From a virus: DNA of 64,000 nucleotides. A program made the translations under genes and the position numbers. Every line of letters starts with the position of its first letter. The first letter of the stretch is position 1. Of the stretch, positions 1-12,672 are shown piece after piece. The DNA lies in the IMG/VR virus record IMGVR_UViG_3300046171_000173, positions 1 to 64,000 of that record. One strand, given 5' to 3'. Below the pieces are notes generated by a model. That model ran no database searches and was not told where the DNA came from. It saw only the letters and a program-made list of their open reading frames with translations.

Positions 1-2247
1 ATGAATACTTTTAGTCAAGTTATTCTTTTGATATAGATTAAAAGATGCACCCCGACATGTATGGGTGCCTTTATAGATCTGTGGTGATGATACTTCTAAC
101 ATCAGATGCAGTCGAGGAATGCTATCTCTTCTGGTGGTAAGTGTTTTAAATTCTGACGAGACTTATCAATAAAATCAATCACTTCATCTTCTGTTCCATT
201 CATCATAATCTTGAGTGCATCTTTAATCATTGTCGACAAGGTGCAGGTGTTGATGATTTAACTGCCTCAATACCCATCATCTTTAGTTTAGGTTCTTCAT
301 ATCTAACACCCTCACTATCCCATACATTTAAGAATATATCTTTTCTTTGCAGTCCATATACCACGATCAGCAATGTTCTCCCTCTTCATAACCATCTTTT
401 GATCATAAGCATTTACATACTTGGCCAACGTTCATAAGAACTTTCAATATAAGGTTCAAATTCATCTTCACACACCTTATTAAGGAACGAGACAATGCTT
501 CAGTAGTTTTCTCTCTCCCTTTGTATACAGTCTCAACCAAATCACCCAGATTAAGATAAATGGAATCAGTATCTGAAGCAATAACATAGTCAACCTCCTC
601 TGTTTTAAGAATCTTGTTTAGATAGTCATTCATTTTGTTTTCTATCCAACGGATAGAAACTTGACCAGATAGTGTAATAGCTTCTGCGTTGGCAAGTTTG
701 TAATAGCGAAAATATTGATTACCAATAGCACCATAAGCACTATTAAGGGATATCTTTTTTGCCATTTGAATATTATTACATCTGGCAATCTCTTTCTCAA
801 GAGCAACGGTTGGGGTTTTTTCATACTGCTTCTTTGCCTCAATCATTTTCTTTTTAAAGACTACACGATCTCCATACATCTTATCCATAAGTTCTGGTAA
901 AAACCCACGAACATCTTTACGATACTGTGCACCATTAGCACAAGTAGCATAGTCTTTACTAATATCTATCTCCTGATTAAGTATCTTATCAACAGTAGCA
1001 GAGGGTTGCCTTTGATCAATAAGAGTTTCTGGAGAAATATTATACTGCATAATCAAATGCGGATATAGAGAGTTAAGGTCAAAACTCACCACCCAATCAT
1101 ACTTTCCGGGAATTGGTTCTTTAACATATGCACCTGCATACTTTTCATTCTTTTGTGATCGATTCTTTGGAGGAATAACAATATTTCTTTTTTTAAAGAT
1201 AATTATAGATGATGGTATCCCACATACGAACCTGCGAGAATACATCAACATAGTTTGCTTTTGCATCATATGCCATTGTAATAGCAAGTTCAATCAACCT
1301 TCATCTTATCTTCCAAGCGGTCAACAAGTTCCACATCAATGATGTTGTATTCAACAAACTTCTGCCAACCTTGTGTATAAAAGTCCTTGAATGTATCAAA
1401 CTCCTGAGTGATCAAGTTTCTTCTGTCCCAATTCAACGCTTGCAATATAATCCAAACGATATGATTCTTGTGCTTTATAAGTAAACTTCTTATAAAGATT
1501 TAAATAATCAAGTTGAGTAATGCCACCAACATCATATGCAATGTTCTTACGACCTGCAATATAAATCTCATCTTCAGTAACAAGGCCCCAAGGAGAAAGT
1601 CTCTTCATTAACTTAGAACCAAGAACTCTTTCTAATCTACGCGATAGATAGGGGATATCATATAATTCAATGTTCCAACCTGTAATTACTTCTGGAGTAT
1701 TCTCTTCAATCATCCACCAGTTGATAAAAGCATTTAGAAGTTCATACTCTGAATTGAATGACTTGTAAATGACATTATCTTGTTTGTTATTAAATGGCCC
1801 CTGACCCCATGTGCGAATCTGTTTTGTTGTATAGTCCTGTATTGATATAAGTAGTATTTCTTCTGCCGAAGATTCTACATCAGGGAATCCATTCTCAGAC
1901 TTCACCTCAATATCAAGTGTAGTTAATTTAATCTTGCTTATATCAAACTTGACTTCTGGTTCCGGATACATCTCAGAGATGTATTGATAGATATATCTGT
2001 CATTTCCGTAGATATCAAAATTCTGTACACCATCATATCTTTTGAAGAACTCACGACAATCACGAACTGAACCGGGATTGATTGGTTCAACAGATTCACC
2101 AGTAAGAGTCTTATACTTAGTATTCTTTTTTGAAGAGACGAAAAGAGTTGGGGCAAAAGATTCTCGTACCATGAAATGTTTACCATTCTCATAACCACGA
2201 ACTAAAAAATTATTTCCAACTAATTGAACATTAGTATAGAATCTCAT
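1..2247 (-). CDS. 43: DNA polymerase gp43 (family B), 3' end outside window, frameshifted
   Basis: Replicative DNA polymerase of the T4 replisome. The N-terminal exonuclease half (2247 to 1396) shows TLDIEVK (exo I), ITGWNIELYDIPYL (exo II) and LDYLNLYKKF. The polymerase half shows SFDLNSLYPHLIMQYNISPE (motif A), KISLNSAYGAIGNQYFRYY (motif B) and the catalytic ASDTDSIYLN (motif C). The frame is broken near 1404, 1297, 1209, 485 and 415 and again between 400 and 1. In each case a one-base correction restores polymerase sequence, including a C-terminal ASDVRSIITTDLYKGTH-like stretch running off the window edge. The start at 2247 overlaps the upstream EndoVII-like gene by 4 bases. Homopolymer-type indels argue for sequencing error, not a split or inactive polymerase. 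Confidence 0.93.
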
Positions 2248-5009: not shown

Positions 5010-7750
5010 CAGTTTCATTATCAAAGTAGGAAGAACATGAGCAGACAAGATTACGATCACCGTAAACATTATCTATTCTTGCTACTGCAGGCCAAAACTT
5101 ACTAGTTTGTTCTACAGGATATGCTGCTTGTTCTCTGGTATAATTATACACCCATTCTGTTGAACTTACAACCCTTGCAGTATGTGGTGAATTCTTCACT
5201 ATCTCAGGTATTGCAAATATTTCTCTCTTAATCATCTCCATTGCTTTTGCAAATCTTTTCAATTCATCTAAAGATTCTGATTCAGTTGGTTCAACCATCA
5301 TCGTATTTGCAACTGGCCATGATAATGTAGGTGCATGAAACCATAGTCCATTAATCTCTTTGCAATATCCTCTGCAGTAACAGGGAAATTACGACAATCA
5401 AATATACATTCATGTGCGATTCGATCATTATCTCCTCGATATAATACTTTAAAATATGGATCAATTTGATGTGCCAACCAGTTAGCAGATAGTAAAGATA
5501 CTTCACTTGCCTTTCTGAGTCCTTCTCCACCCATCATTCTTATATACATCCAACTGATAGGTAAAATTGATGCACTACCATATTCTGCTGATGATACTCG
5601 ATGAGTCACAAAAGGTGTTAGATGTTCTGCAACACCAATCGGGCCAACTCCGGGGCCTCCACCACCGTGAGGAATACAGAATGTCTTATGTAAGTTAAGG
5701 TGACATACATCTGCACCATAGTCACATGGTTTTGCAAGACCAACCTGTGCATTTAGATTTGCACCATCAAGATATACCTGACCACCATTCTCATGAACGA
5801 TTCTACAAATATCTTTGATAGTTGGTTCAAATACACCATGAGTCGATGGGTATGTAATCATAATACATGAAAGTTCAAATGTATTCATGATTGCTTTCTT
5901 CTCTAAATCTTTTAAATCAATATTTCCACTATCATCACACTTGACTGGAACTATCTTCATGCCCGCCATGACAGCACTTGCAGGATTAGTTCCATGTGCA
6001 CTCTCCGGTATAAGACAAACATTTCTCTTATCATCATCGTTACTTCTATGGTAATCTTGTATTGCTAATAGACCTGCATACTCTCCTTGTGATCCTGCAT
6101 TTGGTTGTAGTGATATAGAATCAAATCCTGTGATCTCACATAACCATCCTTTTAATTCCTTGATAATAATATCATAACCAATTGTTTGAGATGCTGGTGC
6201 AAATGGATGAATGTTTGCAAACTCTGGCCATGAAACTGGCATCAGTTCTGATGCTGCATTTAATTTCATAGTACAACTACCAAGTGGCATCATACCATTT
6301 ACTAATGAGAAATCTTTTGAAACTAACTCATTAATATATCTCATCATATTTGTTTCACTATGATAATTGTTAAATACTTCTTGAGTCAACCAAGGTTTAG
6401 TTCTCTCTGGCACACCTAACCAATGATAATCTCCGATTGAATCGATCACATGATCAATAGTGTCAAATTTATTTGTAATATCTAATTGAGAATCTACAAG
6501 TTGCTTTTAGTTCTTCTAAGTGTCGTACATTCATCTAGTGTAATTAAAGTGTGACCGTCTTCATAACTAACATTGAATCCTTCTAAAGCAAGGAAACTTT
6601 TAAATCGAACAGTATCAAATCCTTCAGACTCATCAACTTCTATCCCACACCATGCTAATGCCTTTTGTAGGGTTTGCCTATATCTTAATACTCTGGTTGC
6701 TATTCTTTTCAGACCTTCCGCACCGTGGTAAGCAGCGTAAAAACCTGCCATATTTGCGAGGAGTGCTTGAGCAGTGCATATATTGGATGTTGCTTTGTCT
6801 CGTCTTATGTGTTGTTCCCTTGTCTGTAATGCTAGTCGTAGTGCTTTATTACCTTGGGAGTCTAGAGACTGCCCTACAATTCGTCCGGGAATCTTTCTCT
6901 TATACTTTTCACTTATTGCAAAGAATGCTGCATGAGGCCCACCAAATCCCATAGGTATACCAAACCTTTGCATACTACCAACTGCAATATCAAAACCCAT
7001 CTCCCCTACAGGTTTCATTAACACCTGTGCCATTGGGTCTACAACCGCAATCTTCATACACTTATATACATCTGCAATACGAATAAGTGCATTCGGATCA
7101 CGAAGTCTACCTTTATTATTTGGTAACTGAACTAATAATCCAAAAGCATCATCAAAATCTTCTAGTGCTGCTACAGTATGCCAATCAAGTAATTTTATTT
7201 CTATCCCTAAAGGTTTTGCTCTTGTTTCTAATACTTGTAATGTTTGAGGAAATACTTCACTATCAACCAAAAATACATTTTTCTTAGATGCACTATGAGC
7301 AAGTAACATTGCTTCTGCTGCTGCAGTTCCTTCATCTAACAAAGATGCATTTGCTATTGGCAACCCAGTAAGTTCTGTAATCAGTGTTTGATAATTAAAT
7401 AATGCTTCTAATCTACCCTGAGATATCTCTGCCTGATATGGTGTATAAGATGTATACCATGCAGGATTCTCAAAAACATTTCTTTGTATTACTGGTGGTG
7501 TAATTGTACCATAGTATCCTTGACCAATTAAGACTCTTTTAACTCTATTCTGACTTGCTATTTCTTTTAATTCAGTAAGTGCCTCTTGCTCACTACACCC
7601 ATCAGGTAGTTTATAATCCCCTCTTAATAATATAGAATCTGGAACTATTTGTCTGACAAGTTCATCCAAACTAGAAAGACCCAAATCCTCTAGCATTTGA
7701 GTCTGTTCTGCCTCTGATGGGCCGATGTGTCTAGAAATAAATTCTGTCAT
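4963..7750 (-). CDS. gcvP: Glycine decarboxylase (glycine cleavage P-protein), frameshifted
   Basis: PLP-dependent P-protein of the glycine cleavage system, which decarboxylates glycine and passes the aminomethyl group to the H-protein lipoyl arm. The N-terminal half opens with FISRHIGPS and runs through [20 protein letters not shown] and GGPHAAFFA. The C-terminal half has the PLP-lysine motif [18 protein letters not shown], and the tail reads YTREQAAYP and [10 protein letters not shown]. The total is about 929 residues, near family size (about 950). Single-base indels near 6518, 6500 and 5340 split it into three frames; correcting them gives a continuous P-protein with no internal deletion. 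No gcvT, gcvH or lpd is in the window, so it would have to use host partners. It is embedded between genes 44 and 62. Confidence 0.9.
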
Positions 7751-8007
7751 TAAATACCTTGATCTTTTTGACTTTTAAAGAAATCTGATAATGTTGATTG
7801 TAATTGACCCTCATTTTCTTTTGGATCTAATTTATTATAACCTTTAATTTTTTTCCAATCATTATACATTGCCTGTAAGAACCAACTTGAAGCAAGACTA
7901 TCTGCTCCTGATTCTAATAATTGAACTTGTCTTGAAGATAGTTGACGAGATTTGATGTCAATATATTCTGATCTCCAGTTAGAGTCATCGTAAAGTGGTG
8001 TTGCCAT
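7750..8007 (-). CDS. Conserved hypothetical protein, 85 aa
   Basis: Starts [20 protein letters not shown] and ends [13 protein letters not shown]; contains [33 protein letters not shown]. Soluble and probably helical. I do not recognise a domain. Its stop overlaps the gcvP start by one base (TAATG) and its start abuts the capsid-targeted-type gene at 8007, so it is part of the tightly packed cargo operon. Confidence 0.6.
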
Positions 8008-8495
8008 TATCCGTATGTAAAAGTTTTTCCTTTGATTTGTGATTGACCTTCTGGGTTTTTACCCTGTGGTTTGAATTTACCTAATTTAACATTTTTTGCT
8101 TTGCCCAATCCACCTTTGCGTGTTGCTGATAGTGTACCAGTTTTTTTCGTTTGTGTCAACACAGAGTCCTGTCCATACTTTTTACCAAGTGCCTTTACAG
8201 TTTTCTTAAACTTTCTCTTACCCATCTTACCTGATGAGACAACATGACTTCTCTCTTTAACTTTTTTCTCTTCACCAGTCTTCTTATCTTTCTCCATATA
8301 TGAACCAGTTACTTTCGTAGCACCACCTAGACCTTTACCACGAATATCTTTATCTAATTGCTTTGCTCTTGCACTATTTTCCTTTGCAGACTTACCTGCT
8401 CTGGATGCAGACAATGCGGCCATTCCACCTTTATCAGACTTGCTTTTTATTCGAGCAAGACTACTCTCGTGTATAAACTCCTTAAATGTCTTCAT
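8007..8495 (-). CDS. Lys/Gly-rich protein with capsid-targeting-like N-terminus
   Basis: About 162 residues, strongly basic (Lys, Arg, Gly, Ser), no cysteine. I take the internal ATG (8495) as start because it yields MKTFKEFIHESS. This closely matches the T4 capsid targeting sequence MKTYQEFIAEA of internal proteins IPI-IPIII. IHE followed by S fits the gp21 cleavage rule (L/I-x-E). The body contains ERSHVVSSGKMGKRKFKKTV, KKYGQDSVLTQ and a GQSQIKGKTFTYG end. Size and charge resemble T4 internal head proteins ejected with DNA. Packaging is inference; the function after delivery is unknown. Confidence 0.6.
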   Translation of the reverse strand: MKTFKEFIHESSLARIKSKSDKGGMAALSASRAGKSAKENSARAKQLDKDIRGKGLGGATKVTGSYMEKDKKTGEEKKVKERSHVVSSGKMGKRKFKKTVKALGKKYGQDSVLTQTKKTGTLSATRKGGLGKAKNVKLGKFKPQGKNPEGQSQIKGKTFTYG

Positions 8496-8521
8496 CCCTT
8501 GCAACAGTTTTTAAGTATTTA

Positions 8522-9661
8522 TTATCTAATGATTTGTATGTCATCATCCTGTGTCCATAGTTCTACCTTATCTCTAAATCTACCTTCTGCCTTTAACTTA
8601 TCATATCTTTTAGTTGCTTTCTTCTTCCACCATGTAAGTATGTTCTCAAGATGAAACTTATCCCAGTTTTGACCATGAACTAATTTATCTTGTTCACCAT
8701 TAATAACTTCACGAACATTTGCATAACCATAATCAGATATGTAGAATCTCTTCTTTTGAGTTAGATTGAGAGCCATATCAATAATGCCTGTAAACTGTTC
8801 CAATTCATTTTTCATATCATACTCTTTCATAGAGTTTTTAATTATAGATATCATCTTTGATTGTCTCTTCATCTTCTTAGAAGATGCTTTATTATCAGTC
8901 AATGGAGTATTATCATTCCATTCTTTAAAACGATTATGTAATTTATGAAATGCATCATCATGAAGCAATGGAGTAAATTTACTTTCAGTTAATCCTTTGT
9001 ATCTCATGAATGGTTTTAAACCATCATACTGAGATGCCGATGTTGTAGATCCATACAAAGATGTTGTTTCAAATAATGCAATCTCTTTATCAAATACTTT
9101 AGATATAGTTTCTCTAGCAAAATGTGAACAACATAATAATGCTAACAATTTACCACCAAGATAATTATATCCAAATGGTTGCGAGGGAACAATCACAAAA
9201 CCCATCGCAGTATGTCTATTCATTAAACTTAGATTAGCTGGTTTACCTAACCAAAGATTTCTAGGTTTGGAATTGATTGTAGGAGAACCAAATCGGATAA
9301 ATCCAATAAGTTTCTTTGTATTCTTTTCATATACCATCCAACGCAACTCTCTACCGGGAATATTTGCTTCATTATTATGAGATGATACAGCACCCAACAT
9401 TGTCTTATAATAATCTTGAGGTAAACCATTTTGAAATCTATCACCGACAAAACGAATATCAAACTCCATATCGTTTGGATGAATATCTTCATTTAAAAAT
9501 TCATCTTCAAAAGATGTAAGTGCACTAAAACTTTTAATAGTTTCTTTTTTAACATATCTAAGGTAATCTTCTATATTTCCCATACGAGAAAAATACTGTA
9601 TAAACTCATCAGCAGCCCATAGAGTATTATCTTTAGAAATAAGATTAATCGTCATGGTCAT
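8522..9661 (-). CDS. DUF4338/DruA-like protein
   Basis: Protein of 379 residues. The central block GRELRWMVYEKNTKKLIGFI, FVIVPSQPFGYNYLGGKLLA and LLCCSHFARE, followed by FETTSLYG and YDGLKPFMRYKG, has the organisation of the DUF4338 family, which includes DruA of the Druantia anti-phage system. The N-terminal 100 residues and the C-terminal 140 residues (basic, ending WTQDDDIQIIR) are not recognised. Biochemical activity is unknown. In a phage a role in competition with other phages or in DNA metabolism is possible but unproven. Start either 9661 or the second Met at 9655; both overlap the end of the PsbN-like gene. Confidence 0.55.
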   Translation of the reverse strand: MTMTINLISKDNTLWAADEFIQYFSRMGNIEDYLRYVKKETIKSFSALTSFEDEFLNEDIHPNDMEFDIRFVGDRFQNGLPQDYYKTMLGAVSSHNNEANIPGRELRWMVYEKNTKKLIGFIRFGSPTINSKPRNLWLGKPANLSLMNRHTAMGFVIVPSQPFGYNYLGGKLLALLCCSHFARETISKVFDKEIALFETTSLYGSTTSASQYDGLKPFMRYKGLTESKFTPLLHDDAFHKLHNRFKEWNDNTPLTDNKASSKKMKRQSKMISIIKNSMKEYDMKNELEQFTGIIDMALNLTQKKRFYISDYGYANVREVINGEQDKLVHGQNWDKFHLENILTWWKKKATKRYDKLKAEGRFRDKVELWTQDDDIQIIR

Positions 9662-9791
9662 CCCAAGGGTCTGTTAAATCTTCATTGGCAAAGAATCCTT
9701 TATAGATTCCATAACCTGTGAGTAATACCATCATTATAGCAATAGAAATGACAGTTGTATACTCCGGTGAATATGATGCATGCGGAATCAT
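9645..9791 (-). CDS. PsbN-like 48-aa membrane protein
   Basis: A short ORF with one hydrophobic segment (TTVISIAIMMVLLTGYGIY) and the acidic tail LTDPWDDHDD. This matches the layout of cyanobacterial PsbN: a TVLSI-type start, a TG-x-x-x-Y helix end, then L-x-DP-x-DDHxD. PsbN is a thylakoid protein needed for photosystem II assembly or repair. Its start overlaps the stop of the 9788 gene (ATGA), which supports real translation. Homology is by eye over 40 residues, so moderate confidence. Confidence 0.55.
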   Translation of the reverse strand: MIPHASYSPEYTTVISIAIMMVLLTGYGIYKGFFANEDLTDPWDDHDD

Positions 9792-9976
9792 TTAAATCTC
9801 CATTCTCTTTCATCTAAAACTTCATTAATAAGTTCTTTTAATTCTTTCTTAAGAGTGTCAGATAGAAGATTCATTTCATTCTTTACCATAGGTGGAATAG
9901 CATCACGCTGTTCTTGAAGTGATTTACCGCCACTCTTCTCAGATCCAAATGACATTCCTTGAGTATCAATCTTCAT
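9788..9976 (-). CDS. Small conserved protein, helical C-terminus
   Basis: Protein of 62 residues, MKIDTQGMSFGSEKSGGKSL followed by a charged helix KNEMNLLSDTLKKELKELIN ending DEREWRFK. The C-terminal half is predicted coiled coil. No known domain. It overlaps the membrane-protein gene upstream by 11 bases and the PsbN-like gene downstream by 4 bases, placing it in a coupled chain. Confidence 0.5.
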   Translation of the reverse strand: MKIDTQGMSFGSEKSGGKSLQEQRDAIPPMVKNEMNLLSDTLKKELKELINEVLDEREWRFK

Positions 9977-10232
9977 AATTTTCTATTGTTTCCCAAATGA
10001 TATAGTCATCAGGATTAACCATTGGCATATATCCTCCACTATTTCTTCTTGGTATAGTAATAATATCAATAGTCTCTTCAAACCATCTATTCATTGATTT
10101 TGCCATCTGACGATATCCAGTGCCGACATAGACTTGGCCTGCAACAACTGCGACTGTTGCTATACCCCAGAATAAGTAATAACTTGACGATTTCATTTGT
10201 GCTTTTCTTTTTGTGAATGTTGATTTAGTCAT
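9966..10232 (-). CDS. Small membrane protein, one N-terminal TM helix
   Basis: The ORF is open to 10265, but the ATG at 10232 (MTKSTFTKRKAQMKSSS) overlaps the upstream zinc-ribbon stop and is the better start, giving 88 residues. A basic N-terminus precedes YYLFWGIATVAVVAGQVYVG (one membrane helix), then YRQMAKSMNRWFEE and an acidic end IIWETIENYED. Orientation is probably N-in by the positive-inside rule. Function unknown; membrane placement next to a PsbN-like protein is suggestive only. Confidence 0.6.
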   Translation of the reverse strand: MTKSTFTKRKAQMKSSSYYLFWGIATVAVVAGQVYVGTGYRQMAKSMNRWFEETIDIITIPRRNSGGYMPMVNPDDYIIWETIENYED

Positions 10233-10383
10233 TTTGATCTTCACGCGGATAATAGACCTCAACATAAGAATTACATTGAGGACATGATAAATTTGTAACT
10301 ATACTATACTCTGGAGTCATGTCCATGTCAAGGTCATGATCCCCACCCCAGATTAATTCAGTGTTACAGTGCCAACAGTTCAT
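10225..10383 (-). CDS. Two-CxxC zinc-ribbon mini-protein
   Basis: A 52-residue ORF: MNCWHCNTELIWGGDHDLD and, after a spacer, NLSCPQCNSYVEVY. Two CxxC pairs about 34 residues apart form a typical zinc ribbon. The start overlaps the pyrE stop (ATGA) and the stop overlaps the next start, so it is coupled to both neighbours. Function not known. Confidence 0.65.
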   Translation of the reverse strand: MNCWHCNTELIWGGDHDLDMDMTPEYSIVTNLSCPQCNSYVEVYYPREDQND

Positions 10384-10919
10384 TCAATAATATCCTCTAA
10401 TTTGTATAGAGAAATAAATTCTATCTTATTATTTTCCCATATGATGTGATCATCTTGTCTATCAACGATTGCAACAACACGATTCACAATGTAACCTGCA
10501 TCACGCAATACATTTACTGCTTTGATTGCACTACTACCTGTTGTAGTTACATCTTCTAATACTGTAACGATAGATCCTTCAGGTGGCTTGTTACCTTCAA
10601 TAACTTCTTTTGTTCCATATCCTTTCGGATTCTTTCTTACGATCAAAGCATCAATATGTTTACCAGAGTAGTATGCTTTCTGTGCGATACCACAAACTAA
10701 AGGATCAGCACCAAGAGTAAGTCCACCAACTGCTACAGATTTATCTTCCACATGCTCTATCATTAAATGTGATAGAAGTGCATTTCCCTCACAGGATAAA
10801 GTAACAGGTTTACAGTTAATATAATGCTCCGATTCTTTACCAGAAGATAAGGTAAATTTACCTTTCTTGTATGCTCTTTCTCTTAGAAGATGTAGTAATG
10901 TCTTTCTATGATTTTCCAT
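10380..10919 (-). CDS. pyrE: Orotate phosphoribosyltransferase
   Basis: Converts orotate and PRPP to orotidine 5'-phosphate in pyrimidine synthesis. The 179 residues include KKGKFTLSSGKESEHYINCK at the N-terminus, a GLTLGADPL loop and the PRPP-binding motif VTVLEDVTTTGSS (residues about 117-129). It is slightly shorter than bacterial PyrE (about 200) but has both ends. pyrE is known in cyanophages. Here it lies between an Sm-like gene and the zinc-ribbon gene, in the cargo block between 44 and 62, consistent with boosting nucleotide supply during replication. Confidence 0.9.
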   Translation of the reverse strand: MENHRKTLLHLLRERAYKKGKFTLSSGKESEHYINCKPVTLSCEGNALLSHLMIEHVEDKSVAVGGLTLGADPLVCGIAQKAYYSGKHIDALIVRKNPKGYGTKEVIEGNKPPEGSIVTVLEDVTTTGSSAIKAVNVLRDAGYIVNRVVAIVDRQDDHIIWENNKIEFISLYKLEDIIE

Positions 10920-11203
10920 CAGAGAATTAATTGTTTAGTTGGTTTTGATATCTTACCAAACATTGAATTGTATTGTTCGATAATCTCATCTTGAGGATCT
11001 CCAATATAAACCACATATTTTTTAGTGACTTCAAGTTTATCTTTTTGAAGTAAAGGAGACCAAGGAGCAAATGCAATTTGTCCTTGTTTTTGTGACGGTA
11101 CTGCCACAATCGGATCAGTGATTGTTATTGAATCAGTGTCCTCTTTTGTAATGTCAGCGATTACATCTTCGCCAGACCACATACGAATTAATTTTACAGT
11201 CAT
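10919..11203 (-). CDS. Small Sm-like (LSm-type) phage protein, paralog C
   Basis: Protein of 94 residues starting MTVKLIRMWSGEDVIADITK, followed by ITITDPIVAVPSQ, QIAFAPWSPLL and KYVVYIGDP. It matches paralog B in the N-terminal xKLxxxxSGxxVIAD signature and in the later W-containing strand. The C-terminus EQYNSMFGKI is helical. It overlaps gene 44 by 4 bases upstream and pyrE by one base downstream. Confidence 0.65.
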   Translation of the reverse strand: MTVKLIRMWSGEDVIADITKEDTDSITITDPIVAVPSQKQGQIAFAPWSPLLQKDKLEVTKKYVVYIGDPQDEIIEQYNSMFGKISKPTKQLIL

Positions 11204-12141
11204 TTGAATTCACACTCCACCATAATTTCGGTTAAACAAGCTAATAGGTTAATTTCCTGATCTGCCACAAATGCTACTTGGTATTGATATTTAGCCAAAA
11301 CAAGAATGGCAGCAGGAATAGAACTAGCGACCAAGGTTTCATACAAACTATCGTAAATGCGACGAAACAATAAAGTGGTATCATTATCCAAGTTAGTGTT
11401 GACCCATTTACGGACTTCAGAAAAGTTTTTTTCCTTAAGACTCTTAGTAAGTTCATTAATTGAAACATCAGAAAAGGACGCTAGAATGCCGGAATCTATT
11501 TCACCTCCGACTGAGTATCTTTGACACTCGTTGAGGACTCTCCTCCAGTCAGGAAAGTGTTTACTGATTAACTCAGCAACAACTTTCTTATCACTCTTTA
11601 TGTTCTCTTTGTCAAGAATATAATTAATCCTTGCAAAGAACTGTGCTGCTATTGTTGGTTTGTCTTTTTTATTAACAGAGAAGTCAACAACAGAGCACCG
11701 TGAATGGAGAGGAGAGATGATCTTATTTTTGTAGTTGCAGGTAAAGATAAATCTACAGTTCCTAGAGAATTCCTCAATAGACGCTCTGAGAAGGAGTTGT
11801 ACATCGGAAGTGGTATTGTCTGCTTCATCAATGATGATGACTTTATGTTTTGAGTCACTCGTAAGAGAGACGGTAGATGCGAAGTTCTTTGCGTTGTTCC
11901 GAACAGTGTCCAGAAAGCGTCCTTCATCCGATCCATTAATGACATAGTAGTCTGCTCCAAGTTGATTGCATAATGCCTTTGCTACAGTTGTCTTACCAAT
12001 CCCCGGTGGGCCTGATAATAACATATTTGGTATCTCACCAGCAGTTAAGAAATCTTGAAATGTTTTCTTAATACCTTGAGGTAAGATACACTCATCAATT
12101 GTTTTGGGTCTGTATTTTTCAACCCATATAAAGTCACTCAT
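11200..12141 (-). CDS. 44: Clamp-loader large subunit gp44
   Basis: AAA+ ATPase of the sliding-clamp loader. WVEKYRPKTIDECIL, the Walker A GPPGIGKTT, the Walker B VIIIDEADN and the arginine-finger motif HSRC are all present, followed by the lid and collar domain. About 313 residues, as in T4 (319). The ORF opens at 12147, but MSDFIWVEKY at 12141 is the likelier start; it overlaps the previous gene by 4 bases. It would assemble with gp62 and load gp45. Confidence 0.95.
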   Translation of the reverse strand: MSDFIWVEKYRPKTIDECILPQGIKKTFQDFLTAGEIPNMLLSGPPGIGKTTVAKALCNQLGADYYVINGSDEGRFLDTVRNNAKNFASTVSLTSDSKHKVIIIDEADNTTSDVQLLLRASIEEFSRNCRFIFTCNYKNKIISPLHSRCSVVDFSVNKKDKPTIAAQFFARINYILDKENIKSDKKVVAELISKHFPDWRRVLNECQRYSVGGEIDSGILASFSDVSINELTKSLKEKNFSEVRKWVNTNLDNDTTLLFRRIYDSLYETLVASSIPAAILVLAKYQYQVAFVADQEINLLACLTEIMVECEFK

Positions 12142-12672
12142 AACCAAGCAGGTTTACGATCTGGTTTCCTAAGATAATTATCGCATACCCAAGGTTTAGA
12201 TGCAATGTATCTTTTATACTTAGTTAGAATATCAATACTTGAATCATGCTTTGAACTGATCAGGGCCTGCAAAAGCAAATGGTGTTGCTTCCTTGTGACA
12301 TAGTAATGTCTTACCAGTTCTTTTCTCAAATACTTCTTCTGCTGCATTCATTGCAGTTTGGCATGAATGTACTTTACCATATCTGGTTTCATACTCATTC
12401 AACAATGCAAATCCATGCTGAATCAACCATGCAGTATTGGCAAAACTTTCTGCTGCCCATATTGTACATGGATGTCCACGGAAAGCACCCTTCTCAGTAT
12501 TGTAAGGTGTGCCATCTTTCTTAGGTAGTAAATCATTACCCCAGTTGTAATACCACTTAGAGAAGACTACTGCCAACATTTGGCATGTCTCCAATGGCAT
12601 CTTGACCACATGTTTATCAGGCAACACTTGTGCTGATAAGTCTGGGTCGGGATCAGTAACAAAAATATTCAT
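12138..12672 (-). CDS. Conserved cyanophage protein, Pyr_excise-like, frameshifted
   Basis: N-terminal part MNIFVTDPDPDLSAQVLPDK then HVVKMPLETCQMLAVVF, KGAFRGHPCTIWAAES and AWLIQHGFALLNEYETRYGK. The start resembles the PF03013 pyrimidine-dimer excision family layout (short acidic start, then DKHVVKM), which is common in cyanophages. A single-base break near 12248 separates QFK from the in-phase continuation HDSSIDILTKYKRY and KPWVCDNYLRKPDRKPAWL, giving about 178 residues. A DNA repair role is inferred, not shown. It lies directly upstream of gene 44. Confidence 0.65.

Follow-up and report, generated by a model that had tools for sequence, protein, structure and literature searches.

A diverged psbN gene in a T4-like cyanophage and a phage-only PsbN module found fused or on a separate protein

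The DNA analyzed here, a stretch of 64,000 nucleotides from the IMG/VR record IMGVR_UViG_3300046171_000173 (hereafter the window), comes from a marine cyanophage and contains a psbN gene on the minus strand that encodes a short form of PsbN with 48 amino acids. We consider it likely that this is a phage-adapted psbN derived from picocyanobacteria, which would aid the assembly of photosystem II (PSII) in the infected cell. A phage-only N-terminal module is fused to PsbN in most of these phages; in short-form phages for which the whole genome is known, it is located on a second protein, T4-GC646. The window gene adds to a phage family that was already known, and its reading as PsbN is correct, if not new. 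Neither the short form nor the occurrence of the module in fused or separate form was described in the literature that we searched.

Previous reports of psbN in cyanophages

Sullivan et al. (2010; PMC3037559) listed T4-GC163, with members in P-SSM4, P-HM1, P-HM2, P-RSM4, P-SSM7 and S-SSM7, as a possible PsbN (PF02468) and stated that it occurs in all T4-like phages isolated on Prochlorococcus, and in no others. We observed psbN in S-SSM4, S-SSM6a, S-SSM6b, S-SSM7 (the record of which itself labels the gene GC 163) and S-TIM4. Four of these, S-SSM4, S-SSM6a, S-SSM6b and S-TIM4, were isolated on Synechococcus. Thus, the exclusivity to Prochlorococcus phages does not hold and the published statement needs correction.

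The cyanophage psbN is located outside the psbA/psbD cluster (PMC7029224, 2020). In a study from 2021, psbN was, together with psbA/D, the most abundant of the photosynthesis genes in the viral mixed-layer samples, and GDCP was also among the most abundant mixed-layer genes (PMC8940887; compare gcvP near psbN in the window). In spite of this reported abundance among the photosynthesis genes of surface-ocean viruses, nearly all phage records name it a hypothetical protein, the exceptions being P-TIM40 (RefSeq) and P-TIM68, and the P-SSM4 copy carries the inserted locus tag PSSM4_007.1. The remark in the first-pass annotation that the gene could be missed in cyanophage genomes was thus a fair one.

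Genomic context of psbN

The source record is an incomplete virus fragment of 79.6 kb. It encodes a DNA polymerase, RegA, the clamp-loader A subunit, a gp44-like clamp loader, a tail sheath and a T4-type neck protein, which identifies the source as a T4-like cyanophage. The nearest record among those compared was the single-cell virus AG-345-L05, with approximately 76% identity over 30% of the first 24 kb.

The psbN gene is located at positions 9645–9791 and is read on the minus strand from 9791 to 9645, yielding the peptide MIPHASYSPEYTTVISIAIMMVLLTGYGIYKGFFANEDLTDPWDDHDD; the first-pass annotation named no strand. The plus strand of this segment contains many stop codons in the frame given, and the minus strand holds an intact ORF of 48 codons. 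Six bases 5' of the ATG, a Shine-Dalgarno-like GGAG can be read from the sequence (9798–9801, minus strand). The ORF directly upstream (9788–9976, minus strand; phrog_1286) encodes a soluble-looking protein of 62 amino acids, and its stop codon has 4 bases in common with the psbN start. The downstream gene (8522–9661, minus strand) encodes a DruA-like protein (PF14236, above cut-off; phrog_19197) and begins within psbN, sharing the final 17 bases of that gene. These overlaps agree with the coupled chain of genes that had been proposed. The proposal that psbN is next to another small membrane protein was only roughly right, since the one-helix protein of 99 amino acids (phrog_2000; 9966–10265, minus strand) is encoded two genes upstream, with the 62-amino-acid ORF in between. 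Contig L065, a relative, has a gene for a protein of the phrog_2000 type immediately upstream of psbN.

A gene for a gp44-type clamp loader (11200–12147, minus strand), recognized from its sequence and from annotated relatives, places psbN within the cluster of replication genes, an arrangement that is shared with P-RSM1, MbCM1 and P-TIM68. In a simple non-overlapping set of ORFs of at least 120 amino acids, all ORFs in the window are on the minus strand. The neighbours in other phages include PTOX, 6-phosphogluconate and glucose-6-phosphate dehydrogenase and transaldolase, which fit photosynthetic metabolism. In most cyanobacteria, psbN is located beside psbH on the opposite strand (PMC4823308), whereas the neighbours in the window are phage genes.

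Homology with PsbN

The Pfam profile for PsbN (PF02468) matched residues 12–48 of the window protein, reaching its last residue, with a score of 39.4 bits against a cut-off of 25 (E = 5.4e-10, or approximately 5e-7 after correction, as the window contains 920 open frames with 30 amino acids or more). The NCBIfam equivalog profile NF009650 gave 43 bits, below its cut-off of 70, as compared to 89–99 bits for four cyanobacterial PsbNs. Thus, judging from these profiles, the window protein is a homologue of PsbN that has diverged from its host counterpart. The first-pass annotation of a PsbN-like gene with 48 residues was thereby confirmed, both by the intact frame and by the significant profile match. 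The phage family profile phrog_8051 was matched at positions 22–69 of 69 (E = 1e-19), so that the first 21 positions, which are missing in the window protein, correspond to the module.

The hydropathy analysis displayed one hydrophobic helix at approximately residues 11–29 (best 19-residue Kyte-Doolittle mean of 1.75), followed by a hydrophilic, acidic tail, LTDPWDDHDD, on the predicted cytoplasmic side. The single helix, its TGYGIY end and the tail were all recovered as first described. Both the window protein and the cyanobacterial and plastid PsbNs (PF02468, NF009650) consist of one helix followed by a tail of the type L-x-DPF-[DE][DE]H-x-D, and the motif D-x(2-3)-[DE][DE]H-x-D was present in the window protein when aligned with host and phage sequences. 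The window protein differs from the host proteins in its N-terminus, MIPH, and in the lack of the FGPPS linker between helix and tail, for which the phage consensus has GFFA-N instead. The consensus is TGfgiYtaFGPPsk.L.DPFddHeD for the hosts and lagyG.YkGFFA-N.nLtDPwDDHDD for the short phage forms. The core, helix and tail are common to the window protein and the other members of T4-GC163 (phrog_8051), among which it is closest in form to those of P-RSM4 and S-SSM7, but most members carry the N-terminal module that the window protein lacks.

Conservation and phylogeny

Relatives of the window protein are encoded on more than 400 IMG/VR stretches, and the same ORF is present in many cyanophages, as had been anticipated. 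The conservation of the DDHxD tail among homologues was likewise borne out, with more than 180 phage sequences ending in [DE][DE]H.[DE]. The median pairwise dN/dS for 146 distinct phage gene sequences was 0.14, and the ratio exceeded 1 in a single one of 1913 usable pairs, from which we conclude that phage psbN is under purifying selection. We rejected gene overlap as the cause of the tail conservation, since P-RSM4 retains the acidic-histidine tail though the next gene begins after the psbN stop. We also rejected a chance or decayed ORF that merely resembles PsbN. The gene is short and one-helix proteins look alike, but such an origin is extremely improbable given the significant profile match, the purifying selection and the intact gene in six contigs with an identical protein.

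In a tree of 102 proteins and 44 columns, all phage PsbNs of the DDHxD type formed one clade (support 100/99). This clade was located among the PsbNs of marine Synechococcus and Prochlorococcus, with weak support (80/79) from only 44 columns. A phage PsbN type with a C-terminal extension was placed elsewhere in the tree, on a very long branch. This type includes PsbN-like proteins in P-SSM7 (L182:1501–1806), P-SSM2 (L181:1501–1803) and P-TIM68 (L180:2492–2830), in which the extension is rich in histidine, DEHAKMHELGIAHGHGG...

The phage-only N-terminal module

A module that is restricted to phages, MIFLSCPPVYTLPGTW, is present at the N-terminus of most phage PsbNs. These long forms begin approximately 21–28 residues before the start of the window protein, and the additional segment is strongly conserved, as in MIFLSCPPVYTLPGTWTKCNAIIPHYN... 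The module was found in none of 80 cyanobacterial psbN loci. The loci were fetched with an alignment query that included three host rows; these rows served only as bait, and the evidence consists of the fetched loci alone. They make up the host sample, as a genus-wide search of hosts yielded a single genome. The window PsbN is without the module (PxVYxLPGTW), and its ATG is immediately preceded by an in-frame stop; in close relatives, such a stop is located shortly upstream. A motif search revealed no separate module in the window, and motif and GC646 searches gave no match in the window's record or in contigs of the same phage, which are incomplete. Long PsbN has cysteines on either side of the module (SCPP...KC), but neither GC646 nor the P-SSM2/P-SSM7 type contains them, which rules out a disulphide as the general function of the module. 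A PDB sequence search with long PsbN gave no match.

The module on a separate protein

In P-RSM4, S-TIM4 and S-SSM7, PsbN is short and the module is encoded by another gene, T4-GC646 (phrog_33944; 55 amino acids). The GC646 protein (MFFASHPSVYTLPGTWEPQPDILYNPTLLISLGSTAFAIGAIVSILAVRRKRKRI in P-RSM4) shares the PSVYTLPGTW module with long phage PsbN and has a helix of its own, but lacks the PsbN core and acidic tail and ends in the basic sequence RKRKR. The link was confirmed by the PHROG profiles, as the S-SSM7 GC646 protein matched phrog_8051 from its first position (E 1e-7). The GC646 gene is located immediately upstream of a short psbN in contigs L358, L372, L373, L378, L395 and L402.

Among records longer than 170 kb, GC646 was present in all five with a short PsbN and in none of 11 with a module-bearing PsbN (p = 2e-4). 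The conservative test, without near-duplicates and records found through GC646, gave p = 0.013; both values overstate independence, as the records share ancestry. When fragments were included, a separate GC646 was absent from approximately 30 of the 31 records with a module-bearing PsbN, the exception being G032, where long PsbN and GC646 occur together. All short-form contigs that lack GC646 are incomplete, that of the window among them. Based on these counts and the tandem arrangement on some contigs, the module seems to work either fused or as a separate protein, which gives a tangible starting point for tracing a partner protein that has so far gone undescribed.

Alternatively, GC646 could be a functionally unrelated paralogue that arose from long PsbN, and its pairing with short PsbN could reflect the shared ancestry of a few phages. 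We regard this as rather unlikely. P-RSM4 and S-SSM7 adjoin in the PsbN tree, G032 encodes both proteins and the conservative test gives only p = 0.013. However, the short forms are scattered in the tree and require at least three forced changes (a few rows counted as short being cut by contig ends). Furthermore, in contigs L381, L391 and L393, a PsbN of the C-extended type is likewise without the module and has GC646 directly upstream.

Contig L349 contains two GC646-type genes and one short psbN. Another type of small one-helix protein, with a variant of the module (MIFLSNPQVWTLSGTWSD...RKRKRV), is encoded on the minus strand of L422 and L416, which suggests that phage membrane proteins with the module form a larger family. 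In a PDB sequence search, GC646 gave only weak matches to bacterial reaction-centre L chains (E of 0.2 and above), which we discounted for lack of significance.

Predicted role in PSII assembly

In tobacco, PsbN is an assembly factor and not a PSII subunit; the D1-D2 reaction centre forms poorly in psbN mutants, which also recover poorly from photoinhibition (PMC4823308). The N-terminus of the tobacco protein is lumenal and the conserved C-terminus is stromal (PMC4823308). By analogy with plant PsbN and from the distribution of charges, the phage product would be a one-helix thylakoid protein with a few lumenal residues at the N-terminus and a cytoplasmic acidic tail, DPWDDHDD; a basic residue after the helix of the window protein fits the tobacco topology. 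Since the helix and tail have been kept and the basic residue agrees with this topology, the role of phage PsbN is most likely in the building and repair of PSII in the infected cell.

We suggest that psbN was acquired long ago from picocyanobacteria and then became adapted to the phage, where it would be translated from the coupled chain of small genes within the replication cluster of T4-like cyanophages. During infection, PsbN would most likely help to bring new D1 and D2 together in the reaction centre of PSII, and photosynthesis would thereby last until lysis. In most phages, the extra module fused to the N-terminus of PsbN would be lumenal; in short-form phages for which the whole genome is known, it resides on the separate one-helix protein GC646. 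The module would lie in the lumen also in GC646, the RKRKR end of which favours a cytoplasmic C-terminus. Expression of the gene, the function in PSII and a physical partnership with the module protein are presumed here.

Several results count against an aid to PSII. The FGPPS linker has been lost and the equivalog score is far below the cut-off. Neither psbA nor psbD was found in the 79.6-kb record, which is incomplete. Moreover, in Synechocystis, mutation of psbN in addition to psbH did not aggravate the defect of the psbH mutant (PMC4823308), suggesting that PsbN may matter little in cyanobacteria. The fact that phages keep psbN under purifying selection argues for its importance in PSII upkeep during infection.

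A descendant of PsbN could also have been re-purposed, for example to hold or divert PSII assembly intermediates, to displace the host PsbN or to control the membrane or lysis. The diverged linker, the phage-only N-terminal module, the missed NCBI equivalog cut-off and the further C-terminal extension (DEHAKMHELGIAHGH...) in the P-SSM2, P-SSM7 and P-TIM68 relatives are consistent with such a change. We nevertheless find it unlikely, as the best conserved segment is the tail, which is believed to be where PsbN does its work, and the gene has been retained by phages that keep photosynthesis running.

Under the preferred reading of an aid to PSII assembly, we infer that the module is a lumenal partner of PsbN. 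Taken one step further, phage PsbN might be half of a phage-specific device for PSII assembly that consists of two parts, in which PsbN needs the phage-only lumenal module SCPPVYTLPGTW, either fused to it in the long form or on GC646 in the short form, as in the window. This is a tentative proposal, to which we attach less than even confidence. If it is true, the unsequenced part of the window phage genome should encode a GC646 protein.

Other genes in the region

The slot directly downstream of psbN is occupied by the DruA-like gene in the window and by a Dam methylase gene or other genes in other phages. The gene at 8007–8504 (minus strand) encodes an S-adenosylmethionine lyase family protein (PF23780, 70 bits) that starts with MKTFKEFIHESS, a leader that recurs in relatives; an anti-restriction function is possible. 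The gene at 10380–10919 (minus strand) resembles orotate phosphoribosyltransferase, by eye only, and is absent at the same place in the relative L020.

The gene gcvP for the glycine cleavage P protein (5298–7750, minus strand), similar to that of P-HM1 and P-HM2, is broken into two ORFs, and its end is shortened. In contigs G005, G007, G008 and G009, which encode a PsbN identical to that of the window, the same region contains an open frame of 936 amino acids. Thus, the breaks probably stem from small indels introduced into the window record during assembly or sequencing, or else are specific to the strain. The gene for DNA polymerase B (403–2247, minus strand) is likewise divided into two ORFs, for the polymerase and exonuclease parts, which fits frame breaks in the record. 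Finally, three successive ORFs that by eye resemble high-light-inducible proteins were observed in contig L063 (1180–1704), approximately 1.3 kb upstream of a short psbN.
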